A stretch of 64,000 nt of DNA from Actinomycetes bacterium (GTDB lineage Bacteria; Actinomycetota; Acidimicrobiia; Acidimicrobiales; RAAP-2). The position numbers and the translations under genes were made by a program. The DNA is taken from assembly GCA_021806045.1 (NCBI GenBank), contig JAJZDI010000001.1, positions 70,518-134,517 of the forward strand. Direction: 5' to 3'. Positions 46,978 through 53,410 of this stretch are shown here, in pieces (position 1 is the first letter of the stretch; each line of letters opens with the position of its first letter). The notes under the pieces are model-generated. The model saw only the letters and a program-made list of their open reading frames with translations. It was not told the DNA's origin and made no database searches.

Positions 46978-47985
46978 TCAGGCGGCAGCGCCCCCGCCGC
47001 CAGACGCTGCGGCCGCGCACCACGCCCACAGGTCGCCGCCCTCGGTGCCGGCCCGACCGTGCGGGGGCCGGGTGCCCGGAAGGTGGTAGGCGCTCCGGCG
47101 CCGCCGGTCGTGCCAGATGCCGCCGGGCGCCACGTGGTCGCCTGCCCCACCGGCGGCCAACCACACCACCGTGTCGGCTCCCTCGGCCGGCGTCCGCAGC
47201 ACGGGGCGCCACAGGCGGCGGAAGGTGGGCAGACCGGACTCGAGGCCGGGGGTGTCCACCCATCCGGGGTGGACGACGACGCTCGAGATCCCCGCTCCGG
47301 CCAGGCGCTTCCCCCACTCGGCGGCCAGGACGACCTGGGCCCGCTTCACCCGTGCGTAGGCGGTGACCCCGTTGTAGGACGCCTCGTCCATCACGAGGTG
47401 GTCGAGGTCGAACCGCTGGGTGTACATGCCGCCGGACGAGACGGTCACCATCCGGCCCGACGGTGCCGCCTCGAGCAGCGGCAGCAGTGCCTGGGTGAGG
47501 GCGAACGGGCCGACCAGCCCGACGGCGACCGTCTGCTCGAGCTCGCCGGCAGCGGCGCGGTAGGTGGGGGAGAGGGCGCCTGCGCCGTGCACCAGCGCGT
47601 CGAGGCGGTCGCCGCTCTCCACCAGGCGGGTGCCGAGAGCGGCAGCGGCCGCCGGGTCGCCCATGTCGACCAGGTGGACGCCGGCGACGGTGCCGCCTGC
47701 CGCTTCGACCTCGAGAGCGGCGGACCGTGACCGGGGACCGTCCCGGCCGACCAGGTGGACGGCCGCCCCCAGCCGGCCGAGTGCCACCGCCGCCGCCCGG
47801 CCGATGCCGGAGGTGGCGCCGGTGACGAGGACGGTGCCGCCCTCCAGGCGGGGCGGGTCGTCCCAGTGGTCGACCGCCCGGCGGGCGACGATGCCGATCC
47901 GCGAGAAGCTCCCGGCAACGGTGGCCTCGAGCACCCCGTCGACGGCGTGGGCCAGTGGGTGACGTGCGCGTTCCACGTTGGTCAC
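46978..47985 (-). CDS. Short-chain dehydrogenase (light/B12 module)
   Basis: SDR enzyme of 335 aa with an N-terminal extension of about 45 residues before the cofactor motif TGATSGIGRA. The active-site Ser is in TVSSGGMY and the catalytic Tyr/Lys in YARVK. C-terminal 40 residues are Gly/Ala-rich. It resembles dehydrogenases of the WW-oxidoreductase/retinol-dehydrogenase-like group; the substrate is unknown, a lipid or terpenoid by context. GTG 47985 overlaps the stop of the SRPBCC gene by 4 bp, so it is the second gene of that operon and shares the divergent promoter with the flavin-oxidase operon. Confidence 0.82.
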   Translation of the reverse strand: MTNVERARHPLAHAVDGVLEATVAGSFSRIGIVARRAVDHWDDPPRLEGGTVLVTGATSGIGRAAAVALGRLGAAVHLVGRDGPRSRSAALEVEAAGGTVAGVHLVDMGDPAAAAALGTRLVESGDRLDALVHGAGALSPTYRAAAGELEQTVAVGLVGPFALTQALLPLLEAAPSGRMVTVSSGGMYTQRFDLDHLVMDEASYNGVTAYARVKRAQVVLAAEWGKRLAGAGISSVVVHPGWVDTPGLESGLPTFRRLWRPVLRTPAEGADTVVWLAAGGAGDHVAPGGIWHDRRRRSAYHLPGTRPPHGRAGTEGGDLWAWCAAAASGGGGAAA

Positions 47986-48434
47986 CTGTCCACCGTTTCG
48001 TCCACCGCACCGAGTGCCGCACGCAGCCCGGCCTCCGCCCGGCGGCCGATGGTCCGGAAGGAGGCGGCCAGCAACGGGGCCGTCACCCACGCCAGGCCCC
48101 GGGGCTCGAGGAGAGCCTCGTAGCGGAGCACGGAGCCGTCGCCGTGGGCACGCACGGTGATCCGGTCCCGGGACCGGACGAAGGCGTTGGCCGCCTCCAC
48201 CACCACGGACCCGGAGGGCTCGAGCTCGGTGACCGTGTAGCGCAGCGGCAGCGTGCGGCCGGCGAAGCGTACCTGGAGGTCGAAGCGGCTGCCCACGTGG
48301 ACGTCACCCCCGTCCACGTCGGTGGCGGCGGCGACGCCGGGGTCCCACAGGGCCGCGTTGGAGAACCGGGCCATGTAGTCGAAGACCTCGACGGCGGGGC
48401 GGGGGGAGCTGATGTTGATCACGAAGCGGGACAC
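47982..48434 (-). CDS. SRPBCC-family (START-like) lipid/ligand-binding protein
   Basis: Protein of 150 aa with the helix-grip fold: an N-terminal strand (FVINISSPRPAVEVFDYM), an acidic middle and a long C-terminal helix (TAPLLAASFRTIGRR). Members bind hydrophobic ligands or act as cyclases/dehydratases. GTG 48434 is preceded at exactly 6 nt by TAATAT on the minus strand, so the message is probably leaderless. First gene of the two-gene operon with the SDR. Together with a flavin oxidase, DUF1365 and CFA-like methyltransferase across the promoter, it probably belongs to a lipid-modification set. Confidence 0.8.
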   Translation of the reverse strand: MSRFVINISSPRPAVEVFDYMARFSNAALWDPGVAAATDVDGGDVHVGSRFDLQVRFAGRTLPLRYTVTELEPSGSVVVEAANAFVRSRDRITVRAHGDGSVLRYEALLEPRGLAWVTAPLLAASFRTIGRRAEAGLRAALGAVDETVDR

Positions 48435-48435
48435 G

Positions 48436-48455
48436 GTGCTATATTAGCACTAAAT
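48436..48455. promoter_or_regulatory. Symmetric divergent promoter/operator of the light/B12 module
   Basis: A perfect inverted repeat, GTGCTA-TAT-TAGCAC (48436-48450), provides an extended -10 in both directions: TGC-TATATT (plus) and TGC-TAATAT (minus, leaderless for the SRPBCC gene). Followed by TAAAT, it contains TTAGCACTAAA, of which 10 of 11 bases recur at the regulator's own promoter (52942-52952). A protein binding here would block both operons. Confidence 0.65.
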
Positions 48456-48515
48456 ACAGGAGCGGCCGGGCAACGAACGATGTCCGGGGGCACCGCCACA
48501 CGGCAGGAGAGCAGC

Positions 48516-49769
48516 ATGCGCATCGCCATCGTCGGAACAGGGATCTCGGGGCTGGTCGCCGCCCACCTGCTCTCCGAGCGGCACGACGTGACCGTCTTCG
48601 AGGCGGACGACCGCCCCGGCGGCCACACCAACACCGTCCGGGTCGACCTGCCCGATGCCACCGTCGACGTCGACACCGGCTTCCTCGTGTACAACGACCG
48701 CACCTACCCGAACTTCATCCGCCTGCTCGACCGGCTGGGGGTCGCCACCCAGGCCAGTGACATGAGCTTCGGGGTCCAGGACGAGCGCACGGGCATCGAG
48801 TGGCGGGCTACGTCCCTCTCCACCGTGCTGGCCCAGCCGTCGAACGCCCTCCGCCCGGCCTTCGTCCGCATGCTGGTCGACATCGCCCGCTTCAACCGGA
48901 TCGGCCGTCGCATCCTGGCCGACCCGCCCCCGCTGTCGGTGACCCTGGAGGACGTGCTGGCCGGGGGGAGGTGGTCGGAGGGATTCCGCTCGTGGTACCT
49001 GGTCCCCATCGGATCGTCGATCTGGTCGGCCGACCCCACGACGTTCCTGCGCATGCCCGCCTACACCTTCTGTCGGTTCTTCGAGCGCCATGGGCTGCTC
49101 GCGTTCGGCGACCAGCCGCAGTGGCGGACGGTCACCGGCGGTGCCCGGAATTACGTCGACGCCATCCTCGATCCCCTGCGGGCCGAGGGCCGGCTCCGCC
49201 TGGGGTCGCCGGTCGACAAGGTGCGCCGCAGTGACGGAGGCGTGGAGCTCGTAAGTGCCGCGTTCGGCGCCGAGACCTTCGACCACGTGGTGCTGGCCGG
49301 GCACGCCCCCCAGATGCTCGGCCTGCTCTCCGACGCCGACCGCCTGGAGCGGGAGGTGCTCGGCGCACTGCGCACCCAGCCCAACCGGGCCACCCTCCAC
49401 ACCGACGCCTCGGTCATGCCTCGGGCTCGGCGGGCCTGGGCAAGTTGGAACTACCACCGGACCGATCCCGAGCACGACTCGGCCACCCTGACCTACTACC
49501 TCAACTCCCTCCAGTCGCTGGACAGCGATCACCCGGTGTTCGTCACCCTCAACCGCGACGACGTGATCGACCCGGACAAGGTGGTCGCCTCCTTCGACTA
49601 CGCCCATCCGGTGGTGGACGGCGCCGCGGTGGCCGCCCGCGCCCGCCACGACGAGCTCAACGGCAGGCGCAACACCTGGTACGCGGGGGCATACTGGGGG
49701 TCCGGGTTCCACGAGGACGGCGTGGTCAGCGCGTTGGCGGCGTGCCGGGCGCTGGGCGCCGACCTCTGA
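48516..49769 (+). CDS. NAD(P)/FAD-dependent flavin amine oxidase-like protein
   Basis: Flavoprotein of 417 aa. The dinucleotide motif is IVGTGISGLVAAHLL at the N-terminus, with FEADDRPGGHTNT after it; later blocks are FLVYNDRTYPNF and GSSIWSADP, typical of the group that is encoded beside DUF1365 and CFA-synthase genes. In other bacteria relatives take part in modifying unsaturated or cyclopropane fatty acids (for example in Rhodobacter furan-fatty-acid synthesis, as I recall). ATG 48516 has CAGGAGAG upstream. First gene of a three-gene operon. Confidence 0.88.
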   Translation: MRIAIVGTGISGLVAAHLLSERHDVTVFEADDRPGGHTNTVRVDLPDATVDVDTGFLVYNDRTYPNFIRLLDRLGVATQASDMSFGVQDERTGIEWRATSLSTVLAQPSNALRPAFVRMLVDIARFNRIGRRILADPPPLSVTLEDVLAGGRWSEGFRSWYLVPIGSSIWSADPTTFLRMPAYTFCRFFERHGLLAFGDQPQWRTVTGGARNYVDAILDPLRAEGRLRLGSPVDKVRRSDGGVELVSAAFGAETFDHVVLAGHAPQMLGLLSDADRLEREVLGALRTQPNRATLHTDASVMPRARRAWASWNYHRTDPEHDSATLTYYLNSLQSLDSDHPVFVTLNRDDVIDPDKVVASFDYAHPVVDGAAVAARARHDELNGRRNTWYAGAYWGSGFHEDGVVSALAACRALGADL

Positions 49770-49819
49770 GCGGCCCACGGTTCCCGACGAGCAACGACCA
49801 GCAGCCGGCCAGACGCAAC

Positions 49820-50680
49820 ATGCCATCTCCCACCCACCTCGATCCCACCGCCCCGCCGCCCACCGCGGGCGGCACCGCCGCACCCGTCACCAGCGCCGTC
49901 TACCGCGGCGAGATCGTCCACCGCCGCCGTGACGGCGTCGCCCACGGCTTCCGGCGCACCGACGTGCTGCCGTTCATCCGCCTTGACGAGGTCGACCGCT
50001 TCTGCGACCTCCACCCGTGGTGGTCGGCACGGCACCGGGCGCCGGTGCACGTCCGCCGCGGCGACTTCCTCGGCGACCCGTCGGTGCCGCTCGACGAGGC
50101 CGTGCGCGATCTGGTCGCCGAGCGTACCGGGAGCCGACCGGCCGGCCCGGTGGCCATGCTCGGCCACGTCCGCACCTTCGGCTTCCTCTTCAATCCCATC
50201 ACCTGCTACTTCTGCTACGACGTGACGGGCACCCGGGTCGAGGCCATGGTGTTCGAGGTCGAGAACACGCCGTGGCACGAGCGGCGCGCCACCGTGGTGG
50301 GGCCGCCCGGCCACCACGTGGTGGCGAAGGACCTCCACGTCTCGCCGTTCCTCCCCGACGACCTCGTCTACCACCTCCACTACACGCAGCCCGGCGACCG
50401 GTTGACGGTGCGCTTCGACGTCCGCAGGGGGGACGCCCCCGTCTTCGTGGCCGCCATGGCCCTCCAGCGCATGGAGGCCGACCGGTCGTCCCTCGCCATC
50501 GCCACCCGGCAGGGTGGCTGGCCGACGCTGCGGGTGAGCGCCGGGATCTACCGGGAGGCGTTCCGCCTGTGGCGGGCCGGGGCGACCTTCGTTCCCCATC
50601 CGGACGGCGCCCGGCCACGGTGGCTGGGCCTCGGTGCCGGCAGGTCCCGCCGCCACCGGTCCCCGGGGGTGTCCCGATGA
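49820..50680 (+). CDS. DUF1365 family protein
   Basis: Protein of 286 aa of unknown biochemistry. The family signature is seen as VYRGEIVHRRR, RRTDVLPFIRLDEVD and HVRTFGFLFNPITCYFCYD, with NTPWHERR and KDLHVSPF further on. DUF1365 genes almost always lie between a flavin oxidase gene and a CFA-synthase-like gene, as here, and are often induced by light or singlet oxygen. The Arg-rich C-terminal 30 residues are probably disordered. ATG 49820; its stop overlaps the next start. Confidence 0.9.
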   Translation: MPSPTHLDPTAPPPTAGGTAAPVTSAVYRGEIVHRRRDGVAHGFRRTDVLPFIRLDEVDRFCDLHPWWSARHRAPVHVRRGDFLGDPSVPLDEAVRDLVAERTGSRPAGPVAMLGHVRTFGFLFNPITCYFCYDVTGTRVEAMVFEVENTPWHERRATVVGPPGHHVVAKDLHVSPFLPDDLVYHLHYTQPGDRLTVRFDVRRGDAPVFVAAMALQRMEADRSSLAIATRQGGWPTLRVSAGIYREAFRLWRAGATFVPHPDGARPRWLGLGAGRSRRHRSPGVSR

Positions 50681-52002
50681 CCACCACGGCGTCCCGACCG
50701 GCGACCCGATCCGGACCTGCGTCAGGCGCCGGCGACGAGGTGGTGCGCAGCGCCGACCTCCTGGGCCTGGTGGGCGACGTTCCCCGCCGCCCGGGAGCGG
50801 TGGACCGCCTGGCCGGCGCGCTCGTCCGGGCGGCGGCACGCCACAGCTCGGGCGGCACCCTGGTCGTGCGCGGCCCCGACCGCACCGACCGGTTCGGCTC
50901 CGGGGAGCCGGTGGCCACCGTGACGGTGCACGACCCCCGCGCCTGGCGGGCCCTCGCCCTCCGGGGGTCGGTGGGTCTCGGCACGTCCTACGTCGCCGGG
51001 TGGTGGGACGCCGACGACCTGGTGGCGACGGTGCGGCTGCTGGTGGCCCGGACGGCACGGCTGCGGTCGGTCCTCGACGGTGCCGTCCCCCATGTCGCAC
51101 CCGTCCTCGACCTGGTGGCGAGGCGCGGACCCGACCGCACGACCGACCGCCGCAACATCGGGGCCCACTACGACCTGTCCAACGAGTTCTTCGCCCTCAT
51201 GCTGGACGAGACCATGGCGTACTCGTGCGCGGTGTTCGAGGACGAGGGGATGGACCTGGCCGACGCCCAGCGGGCCAAGTTCGACCGCCTCTGCCGCAAG
51301 CTGGACCTCCGCCCCGGGGACCGGCTGGTCGAGATCGGCACCGGGTGGGGCGGGCTGGCCATCCACGCCGCCCGCCACTACGGCGCGCACGTCACCACCA
51401 CCACCATCTCCGACGAGCAGCGCGCCCTCGCCGTCGAGCGGGTGGAGGCGGCCGGTCTGGCCGGCAGGGTCACCGTCCTCGGCCGGGACTGGCGCGACCT
51501 CGACGGCACCTACGACAAGCTGGTGTCGGTCGAGATGATCGAGGCGGTCGACTGGCGGTGGCACGATGCCTTCCTGGCCACCTGCGCCCGCCTCCTGCGG
51601 CCCGACGGGCTTGCCGCCATCCAGGCCATCGTCATCGCCGACCGCAGCTTCGAGCGGGCCAAGCGCCACGACGACTTCATCCGCCGGATGATCTTCCCCG
51701 GCGGGTGCATCCCGTCGGTCACCGCACTGGCGGCGTCAGCCACCCGGGCCACCGATCTCCGCATCGTCGACGTCGAGGACATCGGGCGCCACTACGCCCG
51801 CACCCTGCACCTGTGGGCCGAGAACCTGGAGGCGGCCGGCGGCCGCGTCGCCGAGCTCGGGGTGACGCCGGCGTTCCGCCGCCTGTGGGACCTGTACCTC
51901 GCCTATTGCGAGGCGGGGTTCCTCGAGCGGCACATCAGCGACGTGCAGATCGTCCTGGCGAAGCCGGCGTGGCGTGGTCGCCTGGCTGCCCGCCCGTGCT
52001 GA
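50677..52002 (+). CDS. Cyclopropane-fatty-acyl-phospholipid synthase-like methyltransferase
   Basis: SAM-dependent methyltransferase of 441 aa acting on membrane phospholipid acyl chains. The N-terminal domain (about 1-150) is followed by NIGAHYDLSNEFFALMLD, the SAM motif LVEIGTGWGGLAIHAA and SVEMIEAV, then RRMIFPGGCIPS and a C-terminal His/Tyr-rich helix region (GRHYARTLHLWAENL). Products in the family include cyclopropane, methyl-branched and furan-type fatty acids; which one is made here is open. ATG 50677 overlaps the DUF1365 stop (ATGA). Its 3' end overlaps the convergent regulator gene by 68 bp. Confidence 0.9.
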   Translation: MTTTASRPATRSGPASGAGDEVVRSADLLGLVGDVPRRPGAVDRLAGALVRAAARHSSGGTLVVRGPDRTDRFGSGEPVATVTVHDPRAWRALALRGSVGLGTSYVAGWWDADDLVATVRLLVARTARLRSVLDGAVPHVAPVLDLVARRGPDRTTDRRNIGAHYDLSNEFFALMLDETMAYSCAVFEDEGMDLADAQRAKFDRLCRKLDLRPGDRLVEIGTGWGGLAIHAARHYGAHVTTTTISDEQRALAVERVEAAGLAGRVTVLGRDWRDLDGTYDKLVSVEMIEAVDWRWHDAFLATCARLLRPDGLAAIQAIVIADRSFERAKRHDDFIRRMIFPGGCIPSVTALAASATRATDLRIVDVEDIGRHYARTLHLWAENLEAAGGRVAELGVTPAFRRLWDLYLAYCEAGFLERHISDVQIVLAKPAWRGRLAARPC

Positions 52003-52933
52003 CCGGCCGTCCGGTCGCCAGTTCCTCCACCAGCTCGACCACCGACCGCCCGTCGGGCGTGTAGTGGTCGGCGCCGACGGAGCGGGCAACGGCCTCGTCG
52101 GTCACCGCTGCCCCCCCGACGAAGACGGGGAGTCCCGGTGCGGTGGCACGCACGGCGGCCACCGCGTCGCGCATCCCCCCCAGCGCGCCGTCGCACACGG
52201 CGACGAGGCCGACGGCCACCGGCCGGCTGCAGGCGGCCACCGCGTCGGCCACCGACCCGGCAGGGGTGTCGGCTCCCAGTTCGACGACGTCGAACCCTGA
52301 CCACCGCAGCAGGTCGGCCACCATGGCGACGGGGAGGGCGTGGAGCTCACCGGCCGGCGCGGCCAGGACGACGCCACCCCGGCGGCGGCCGCGGCGGGTG
52401 AAGCGTGGTCCGAGGCGGGCGATCAGGCGGGCCGCGGTGGCGCTCGCCCGGTGCTCGTCGGCCACGCTGAGCGATCCGGACGCCCAACCGCTCCCGATCC
52501 GGGCCAGCGCGGGGCCGAGCAGTTCGAGGTGGATCCGGTCGGGGCCCGCGCCCCGCCCGAGGGCCGTCTCGACCAGGTCCCAGGCTGCAGGCTCGTCGCC
52601 GGCGGTGAGGCGATCGGCCAATTGGGGCACCAGCCGTGCCGACAGCGGCGCCCCCCCACCGTCCCCCGCCGGCCGGCGCCCCGGGGGGGCCGGCGGCTCG
52701 AGTCGGGCCAGGTCCGCCGCATCCACCACCCACTGGCTGCCTGCACGGCGCGCCGGGAGCTTCCCCGTGCGCACGTAGCGGTAGGCGGTCATGTAGTGGA
52801 CGCCGAGGCGGTCGGCGGCCTGGTGGAGGGTCAGCTCGTCCGGGTCGTGGCCCATGGCTGCCCTGGCGCGTCGTTCAACGGTGCTCCCTTGCCTGCGCCC
52901 CCACCATCCGGTCCCGTCCGGACCAGCACGCAT
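51935..52933 (-). CDS. Cobalamin-binding light-type regulator (CarH/LitR-like) with excisionase-type DNA-binding head
   Basis: Regulator of 332 aa. An excisionase-type helix-turn-helix (about 34-77, LTLHQAADRLGVHYMTAYRYV and then ARRAGSQWVV) replaces the usual MerR head of CarH. A four-helix cap (about 95-175) contains Trp150, Glu160 and His161, exactly the W-x9-EH signature of adenosylcobalamin photoreceptors, and a Rossmann B12-binding domain (about 187-320) has GELH with His198 at the position of the lower cobalt ligand. In relatives, adenosylcobalamin assembles a repressing tetramer that light breaks. ATG 52933 is 5 nt after TAAACT (leaderless). The motif over that -10 matches the divergent operon promoter, so autoregulation is likely. 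Confidence 0.85.
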   Translation of the reverse strand: MRAGPDGTGWWGRRQGSTVERRARAAMGHDPDELTLHQAADRLGVHYMTAYRYVRTGKLPARRAGSQWVVDAADLARLEPPAPPGRRPAGDGGGAPLSARLVPQLADRLTAGDEPAAWDLVETALGRGAGPDRIHLELLGPALARIGSGWASGSLSVADEHRASATAARLIARLGPRFTRRGRRRGGVVLAAPAGELHALPVAMVADLLRWSGFDVVELGADTPAGSVADAVAACSRPVAVGLVAVCDGALGGMRDAVAAVRATAPGLPVFVGGAAVTDEAVARSVGADHYTPDGRSVVELVEELATGRPVSTGGQPGDHATPASPGRSARR

Positions 52934-52938
52934 CCCTC

Positions 52939-52953
52939 AGTTTAGCAGTAAAA
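52939..52953 (-). promoter_or_regulatory. Promoter and candidate operator of the B12 regulator
   Basis: On the minus strand TTTACTGC is followed directly by the -10 TAAACT, 5 nt from the ATG. The same arrangement, TTTAGTGC before TAATAT, occurs at the SRPBCC start: 12 of 16 positions agree with identical register to the -10. It may be an operator, or a shared promoter class. Confidence 0.55.
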
Positions 52954-53035: not shown

Positions 53036-53410
53036 ATGGACGGGCCGGAACTGGTTGTCCGGGAATTCTGCGAGGCGGCCGCCGGTCGCGACGTGGACCG
53101 GATGGCGGCGTTGCTGACCGACGACGTCGTGTACCACAACATGCCGATGGACCCGCTGGTCGGGAAGGAGGCTGCGGTGGACCTGCTCCACTCCTTCATC
53201 GACGGGTGCGACGAGCTCGCCTTCGACATCCGTGGCCTGGCCGTGGCCGGGCACCTGGTGCTGACCGAGCGGGTGGACTCGTTCGTGCGGGGGGACCAGC
53301 GCCTCGACCTGCCGGTGATGGGGGCGTTCGAGGTGGACCGGGGGAGGATCCGGGCCTGGCGCGACTACTTCGACCTCGGCCCCGTGCTCGGGTTCTTCGC
53401 ACCGTCGTGA
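53036..53410 (+). CDS. Limonene-1,2-epoxide hydrolase-like (LEH/SnoaL fold) protein
   Basis: NTF2-like protein of 124 aa. The catalytic set of limonene-epoxide hydrolase can be traced: Tyr33 and Asn35 in VVYHNMP, Arg79 and Asp81 in ERVDSF, and an Asp in the RDYFD motif (113). Substrates of relatives include terpene, steroid and fatty-acid epoxides. It is divergent from the B12 regulator, which makes membership in the same regulated set plausible. ATG 53036 has GGGGAGGAGG at 53021-53030; TACCCT at 53000-53005 is a candidate -10. Confidence 0.78.
   Translation: MDGPELVVREFCEAAAGRDVDRMAALLTDDVVYHNMPMDPLVGKEAAVDLLHSFIDGCDELAFDIRGLAVAGHLVLTERVDSFVRGDQRLDLPVMGAFEVDRGRIRAWRDYFDLGPVLGFFAPS

Follow-up and report, generated by a model that had tools for sequence, protein, structure and literature searches.

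The window analysed here, a 64-kb stretch of DNA from an Acidimicrobiales genome (RAAP-2), carries a regulator gene whose predicted product joins an HTH_17 DNA-binding head to a two-part cobalamin (B12)-binding module. Two copies of a short palindrome, which we treat as candidate operators O1 and O2, lie in front of the regulator gene and between a pair of divergent genes (Table 1). The latter pair opens onto an SRPBCC and short-chain dehydrogenase (SDR) side and onto a putative UfaM-like gene set.

Table 1 Features of the regulator locus, in positions of the window.
Feature	Position	Strand	Basis
ORF with short-chain dehydrogenase, downstream of SRPBCC gene; start approximate, near 47985	46978..48090	-	Pfam adh_short 3e-26
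SRPBCC / Polyketide_cyc2 protein; GTG 9 nt from O2	47982..48434	-	Pfam
-10-like box TAATAT, 6 nt before SRPBCC GTG, overlapping O2	48441..48446	-	Sequence reading
Candidate operator O2, ATTAGCACTAAA, between divergent SRPBCC and FAD-oxidoreductase genes	48443..48454	.	PWM 25.2
FAD-dependent amine-oxidase-type oxidoreductase, first gene of putative UfaM-like set; ATG 26 nt from O2	48480..49769	+	Pfam Amino_oxidase 4e-23
ORF with DUF1365 (domain about 49898-50605)	49445..50680	+	Pfam DUF1365 4e-53
Cyclopropane-fatty-acid-synthase-type methyltransferase (UfaM-like), approximate start; convergent with regulator gene	50680..52002	+	Pfam CMAS 1e-84
Regulator gene, 332 aa: HTH_17 head, four-helix B12-binding_2 cap, Rossmann B12-binding domain	51935..52933	-	ORF, Pfam, AF2, Foldseek
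B12-binding Rossmann domain, residues 188-290; carries G195-E-L-H198 and G220xxxP224	52064..52372	-	Pfam and conservation
B12-binding_2 four-helix bundle, residues 104-174; carries G147xxW150 and E160-H161	52412..52624	-	Pfam and conservation
HTH_17 (excisionase-like winged helix) head, residues 34-77	52703..52834	-	Pfam; 55/55 homologues
Recognition helix H46-Y-M-T-A-Y-R-Y-V-R55	52769..52798	-	Alignment of 64 homologues
-10-like box TAAACT (TANNNT), 5 nt before regulator ATG, overlapping O1	52939..52944	-	Sequence reading
Candidate operator O1, TTTAGCAGTAAA, one mismatch from TTTAGYRCTAAA, 8 nt upstream of regulator ATG	52941..52952	.	PWM 22.5
SnoaL/limonene-epoxide-hydrolase-like gene, divergent from regulator, 84 nt from O1	53036..53410	+	Pfam LEH 9e-22

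An HTH_17 head on a B12 module

We compared the whole regulator protein with Pfam. It matched HTH_17 at 40.0 bits (gathering cut-off 27), B12-binding_2 at 46.8 bits and B12-binding at 45.3 bits, the last two also above their cut-offs, and no MerR model was found at E<=1. No Pfam domain was found beyond B12-binding, where about 40 low-confidence residues follow residue 290. The sequence-only reading had assigned residues 34-77 to an HTH_17/Xis domain and not to MerR, and a profile comparison of the head alone bears this out: HTH_17 scored 43.9 bits, against 15.5 for MerR and 13.3 for MerR_1, both MerR models falling below cut-off. As a yardstick, the TtCarH head scored 68.7 bits with MerR_1 and 23.8 with HTH_17. 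The regulator also passes TIGR01764 (31.6 bits, cut-off 28.8). Its single-sequence AF2 model has a mean pLDDT of 61, with about 90 across the head and a poorly modelled B12 domain; Foldseek searches with this low-confidence model returned the B12 domains of photocobilin, CtMerR and CarH.

The signature GxxW, EH, GxxH and GxxxP was derived with SignatureFinder and tested for light-responsive B12 domains (PMC11796333). It is complete in the regulator (G147-W150, E160-H161, G195-H198, G220-P224), and H198 is predicted to be the lower axial ligand. W150, E160, H161 and H198, which the same reading had described as intact, all occupy the positions it gave, and its open reading frame, strand and coordinates were correct. 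No His follows the Trp; Ala151 stands at the position of TtCarH His132, where 5 of 64 homologues have His. A second regulator of the HTH_17-B12 kind was not found in the genome, in which the sole other B12-binding_2 protein is MetH-like. The gene for a PduO-type cobalamin adenosyltransferase adjoins MetH, so that AdoCbl could be produced from imported or made cobalamin.

Homologues matching across both the head and the B12 module (E<1e-40) occur in 64 of 298 genomes of the order Acidimicrobiales. A search for related loci gave one distant Spirochaetales locus only, and relatives were then taken from whole-genome searches; a phylum-wide search added three families of a different order, in which 21 of 30 genomes have this architecture. 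HTH_17 was matched in all 55 homologues scanned, MerR also in 8 of them and more weakly. By comparison, the curated CarH model detected MerR-type relatives in only 2 of 298 genomes, each scoring under the cut-off (135-146 vs 400 bits). Across the 64 aligned homologues the recognition helix HYMTAYRYVR is near-invariant (H46 in 64, Y47 in 63, M48 in 60, T49 in 64, Y51 in 64, R55 in 64). The B12 motif is similarly retained (W150 in 60, E160 in 59, H161 in 61, H198 in 64), as are the further signature positions G147 (63), G220 (62) and P224 (61). Conservation of the W/EH/H198 motif over this many homologues indicates that it is not there by chance.

A subgroup with an NLKQVA-type head lacks the W/EH motif and keeps the recognition helix and H198 (L041:8330-9340 (-), L064:230-1216 (+), L082:7793-8839 (-)). 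In place of the W/EH motif this subgroup shows DSWP, GIQY or GGQH; at L042:8266-9135 (+) only E is changed, to Q. The subgroup is possibly a branch that is CarA-like, B12-independent or differently tuned. Since some relatives have lost W/EH yet keep the head, some family members may not be AdoCbl photoreceptors. Three contigs carry two paralogous regulators 7-10 kb apart (L037, L039 and L071; G107:C23, G291:C114 and G214:C27), with ferrochelatase, WhiB and glutaredoxin-like genes among the neighbours.

A candidate operator and its geometry

Enrichment of k-mers upstream of the 64 homologues yielded TTAGCACTAA/TTAGTGCTAA, and alignment of the sites gave a 14-bp palindrome, ATTTAGYRCTAAAT. No CarH-type 11-bp repeats surfaced in this k-mer search. 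In the 64-kb window TTTAGCASTAA occurs twice with at most one mismatch (52941-52951 and 48443-48453) vs 0.01 expected, and the best non-site scores -1.7 on the PWM. Over the 3.1 Mb genome, TTTAGYRCTAAA with at most one mismatch is found in three places, namely O1, O2 and a site on contig C25 between FAD-oxidoreductase and DUF2867 epimerase genes. The genome's own photolyase has no site nearby. The 0.95 Mb of regulator loci contain 48-49 sites, vs 0-1 in first-order Markov shuffles; reversing the motif gave 3. The 5' end of a regulator gene accounts for 23 of 48 sites; the other 25, away from the regulator promoter, played no part in motif discovery.

The site and the regulator also occur together across genomes. 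Of the 64 genomes that have the regulator, 38 contain exact TTTAGYRCTAAA, vs 19 of the 234 that lack it (OR 16.5, p 3e-17 by Fisher's test, which ignores kinship), and the reversed pattern showed no association over the order (OR 0.87, p 0.85). The exact 12-mer is missing from 26 of the 64 regulator genomes, and at several regulator loci no site was recognised out to about 8 kb. The regulator probably reads the DNA signal TTTAGTGCTAAA, which is unlike the known CarH signal, and the pair of protein and signal is found again in dozens of relatives. At six loci two palindromes lie 16-21 bp apart (L037:13237/13255, L048:9080/9098, L052:9149/9168, L069:10154/10170, L045:1939/1959, L076:3540/3561), as if two dimers or one tetramer bound side by side.

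To compare half-site geometry, we grouped the homologues by recognition helix. In the window's clade (HYMTAYRY), TTAGY forms an abutting inverted repeat in 8 upstream regions vs 0.13 expected. The second clade (HYMTAYRW) has TTAGY direct repeats at exactly 10 bp in 6 of 23 upstream regions vs 0.10 expected. The third (HYQT) has TTAGY arrays at 10, 20, 30 and 40 bp, each in 2-3 of 20 vs at most 0.1 expected, as in the example TTAGTCTAAT TCAGCTAGAT TTAGTTCAAC TCAGCGAGAT at L090. The register of the half-sites is strict, though the counts are small. With MerR-type relatives as the root, the tree separates the clades (HYQT 98/97, HYMT-W core 100/100, main clade 91/80), and a single change of operator geometry suffices. 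For reference, the direct repeats of BldC (9 bp; PMC5859096) and of the CarH operator (11 bp, nnnnTnnACAn; PMC9304148) are also spaced near one helical turn.

These results bear on whether the palindrome belongs to another regulator, such as WhiB, HrcA or an unrelated transcription factor, while the B12 protein reads something else. WhiB genes do adjoin some sites, and the half-site TTAGCAC is identical to the CIRCE half-site of HrcA. We nevertheless hold this assignment to be quite unlikely, as the sites track the presence of the B12 regulator over 298 genomes, are often at its own start, and have a half-site geometry that follows the regulator's own clades with a single change on the tree; the real CIRCE of the genome, moreover, differs in layout. 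CIRCE/HrcA was ruled out as the source of the palindrome: the true element, TTAGCACTC-N9-GAGTGCTAA, precedes a groEL-like start with the N9 layout (L197:1502-1529; G000:C36, near 156203). As the two elements share this half-site, HrcA might conceivably cross-talk with the candidate operator.

Start codons most often lie exactly 9 nt from the palindrome, in a sharp peak of 12 cases. Over 43 sites, the palindrome half nearer the gene tends to read TAANNT, with T as the last base in 53%. This pattern suggests a leaderless promoter with the -10 box inside the candidate operator. Such a layout, in which the sites share bases with the -10 box and the start codons are 8-10 nt away, differs from the 19-20 bp spacer between -35 and -10 in which classical MerR proteins bind palindromes and activate. 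BldC-like heads are capable of both repression and activation, so a MerR-type activator that distorts the promoter and switches it on in the light, in place of a steric repressor, deserves mention. Given the site positions, and as CarH relatives are dark repressors, we regard it as very unlikely.

Predicted targets

Genes next to the sites were chosen by a simple coding score, and representatives were identified by Pfam. Besides the regulator itself, they encode FAD-oxidoreductase, SRPBCC, SDR, WhiB, DNA photolyase, superoxide dismutase, ferrochelatase, CobA-HemD, polyprenyl (GGPP-type) synthase, lycopene cyclase, fasciclin, a P450-ABC1 fusion, and an FMN-dependent dehydrogenase that resembles IPP isomerase 2. 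Judged by these annotations, the set is a list of predicted photooxidative-stress functions. Single matches to a sigma factor, a carbonic anhydrase and a transglycosylase may be chance or wider targets.

The genes around O2 recur at sites in relatives. Nine sites precede FAD-oxidoreductase homologues, and a site heads the FAD-oxidoreductase gene set in 8 of the 8 loci carrying that gene. SRPBCC genes adjoin sites at L054, L062, L107 and L109, and SDR genes at L053, L056, L066, L083 and L135. At L036 a DNA photolyase gene diverges from the regulator at the site. A homologous set in Pseudomonas (SDR, FAD-oxidoreductase, ufaM and phrB) is light-induced 25-33-fold under a LitR-family regulator (PMC9758184). 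The SnoaL/LEH-like gene beyond O1 is a possible co-target.

The make-up of the list also speaks to the nature of the signal. Were it AdoCbl level or corrinoid supply, and not light, the same fold and operator would serve, and AdoCbl-dependent DNA binding alone would report the level of the cofactor; six loci (L097-L102) do have sites in front of CobA-HemD, a tetrapyrrole gene. Most identified targets are, however, photoprotective (photolyase, carotenoid genes, the UfaM-like set and SOD) and not concerned with B12 transport or synthesis, and the complete light signature is conserved, including the Trp over the adenosyl group. A cofactor-level signal thus seems unlikely to us, and we retain light as the predicted signal.

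Three further arrangements were seen at these loci. In one branch the regulator is flanked by a glutaredoxin-like gene on one side and ferrochelatase on the other, and WhiB and an Fpg/Nei-like DNA glycosylase are often present as well (L034, L037, L039, L045, L048, L050, L052, L069, L071, L074, L076, L081, L085 and others), an arrangement that ties light to haem synthesis and redox. A candidate operator lies 14-20 nt from the start of a fusion gene that joins a cytochrome P450 to an ABC1/UbiB-like kinase domain (L087:8238-11177 (-) and L088:4931-7855 (+)). A small hydrophobic protein of 67-86 aa with no Pfam match is encoded beside the palindrome in two genomes (L106:3844-4104 (+) and L112:4761-4964 (-)).

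Proposed mechanism and known B12 photoreceptors

The domains, motifs, operator linkage and target types are computational results; from them we infer AdoCbl binding, a light response, contact between head and palindrome, and repression. We consider it probable that the protein is an AdoCbl-dependent, light-responsive B12 repressor with a head distinct from that of CarH, which would repress a photoprotection regulon in the dark through its own operator. In the dark, AdoCbl would have the helical cap (W150, E160, H161) on one side and, on the other, the Rossmann domain, which would supply H198 as lower ligand. The AdoCbl-bound protein would be an oligomer whose paired heads each contact one TTTAG half-site of the palindrome. 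As the candidate operator overlaps the -10 box of a leaderless promoter, RNA polymerase would be shut out, and the regulator would also repress its own gene. Light would break the Co-C bond and dissociate the oligomer, and the freed operator would allow expression of the photoprotection genes and of the regulator, which would thereby induce itself. In the sister clades, half-sites in a 10-bp register suggest heads arranged head-to-tail on one face of the DNA.

The regulator shares with class I CarH/LitR proteins (Thermus, Myxococcus, Bacillus) the two-part B12 module, the Wx9EH and (D/E)xH motifs (here E196-L-H198) and an N-terminal DNA-binding head, together with a photoprotection gene set and, as predicted here, autoregulation. 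It differs in several respects. The CarH head is a MerR domain with an RxWERRY recognition helix, whereas the head here is HTH_17 with HYMTAYRYVR. The CarH operator is built of tandem TnnACA repeats, whereas the candidate here is a palindrome, with TTAGY repeats in the sister clades. TtCarH His132, present in many but not all CarH proteins, is the upper ligand in the bis-His light state and is replaced by Ala151. The curated CarH model NF052513 gave 60.4 bits, over the B12 region only, against a cut-off of 400. Thus the regulator is, by its predicted working, CarH-like, and lies outside CarH by head, curated score and candidate operator. The initial label of a CarH-type photoreceptor is loose. 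Wx9EH and the lower-ligand motif are in place, but the B12 part carries Ala151 and is nearer to photocobilins and CtMerR than to TtCarH: the family profile scored 139 bits for photocobilins, 112 for CtMerR, 106 for methionine synthase and 85 for TtCarH. The different operator code that the sequence-only reading had inferred gains support from the candidate palindrome and the TTAGY repeats, set against the 11-bp repeats of CarH.

The nearest characterised precedent is CtMerR of Chloracidobacterium thermophilum (PDB 8jbs/8jbt), whose B12 domain undergoes a light-driven tetramer-to-monomer change (PMC11796333). CtMerR shares the light signature and likewise lacks a His behind the Trp; its head scores best as HTH_17 (32.2 vs 22.4 bits for MerR_1, which it just passes; head sequence from alignment). 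Its tetramer dissociates in light even so, and a bis-His light state is thus not required. Identity between the two proteins is low, about 27% in the structure comparison, and we found no description of a CtMerR operator or regulon in the available portion of PMC11796333, which does record fusions of light-responsive B12 domains to HTH domains. An HTH_17-B12 architecture is therefore not categorically new; the earlier claim of an alternative architecture stands for the HTH_17 head in place of MerR, and has this precedent.

The closest B12 module in both sequence and fold is that of the photocobilins (SasPcob 8j2w and AbDPcob 8j2y, the latter from an Acidimicrobiaceae bacterium; PMC10979010). 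These pair the B12 module with a biliverdin-binding domain and lack a DNA-binding head, whereas the regulator has the head and no biliverdin-binding domain. As in the BldC family (PMC5859096), the head is a small MerR/Xis-type winged helix, and the tandem half-sites of the sister clades, at 10 bp, resemble the 9-bp spacing of BldC. BldC, however, has no sensor domain and recognises the repeat AATTXXXX(C), whereas the regulator has a sensor domain and its own clade uses a palindrome. The class II LitR regulon of Pseudomonas (PmlR/PplR; PMC9758184) contains homologous light-induced photolyase, SDR, FAD-oxidoreductase and ufaM genes; PmlR and PplR have a MerR head but no complete B12 module, and light is sensed via a LOV protein.

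In the literature searched, which included few subscription papers, we found no prior description of an HTH_17-B12 regulator, its operator or its regulon; the family spread, operator, regulon and geometry change appear to be new. We lean towards the view that HTH_17-CBD proteins are a widespread family of B12 photoreceptor repressors in their own right, which in these lineages largely fills the role of CarH, with TTAGY as its own half-site. One clade would have exchanged 10-bp direct repeats for a palindrome, with half-site and recognition helix retained, and that clade would control a multi-locus photoprotection regulon from leaderless promoters. A B12 light switch paired with a different predicted DNA code lets light-sensing and DNA-reading modules be regarded as separable in nature. 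The clade-linked change from direct repeat to palindrome would be a case of operator geometry evolving under a fixed half-site, and it bears on which B12-photoreceptor oligomer binds DNA. The protein is a prospective optogenetic repressor orthogonal to CarH, and the analysis offers a testable operator, regulon and mechanism for bacterial groups with almost no known light response.
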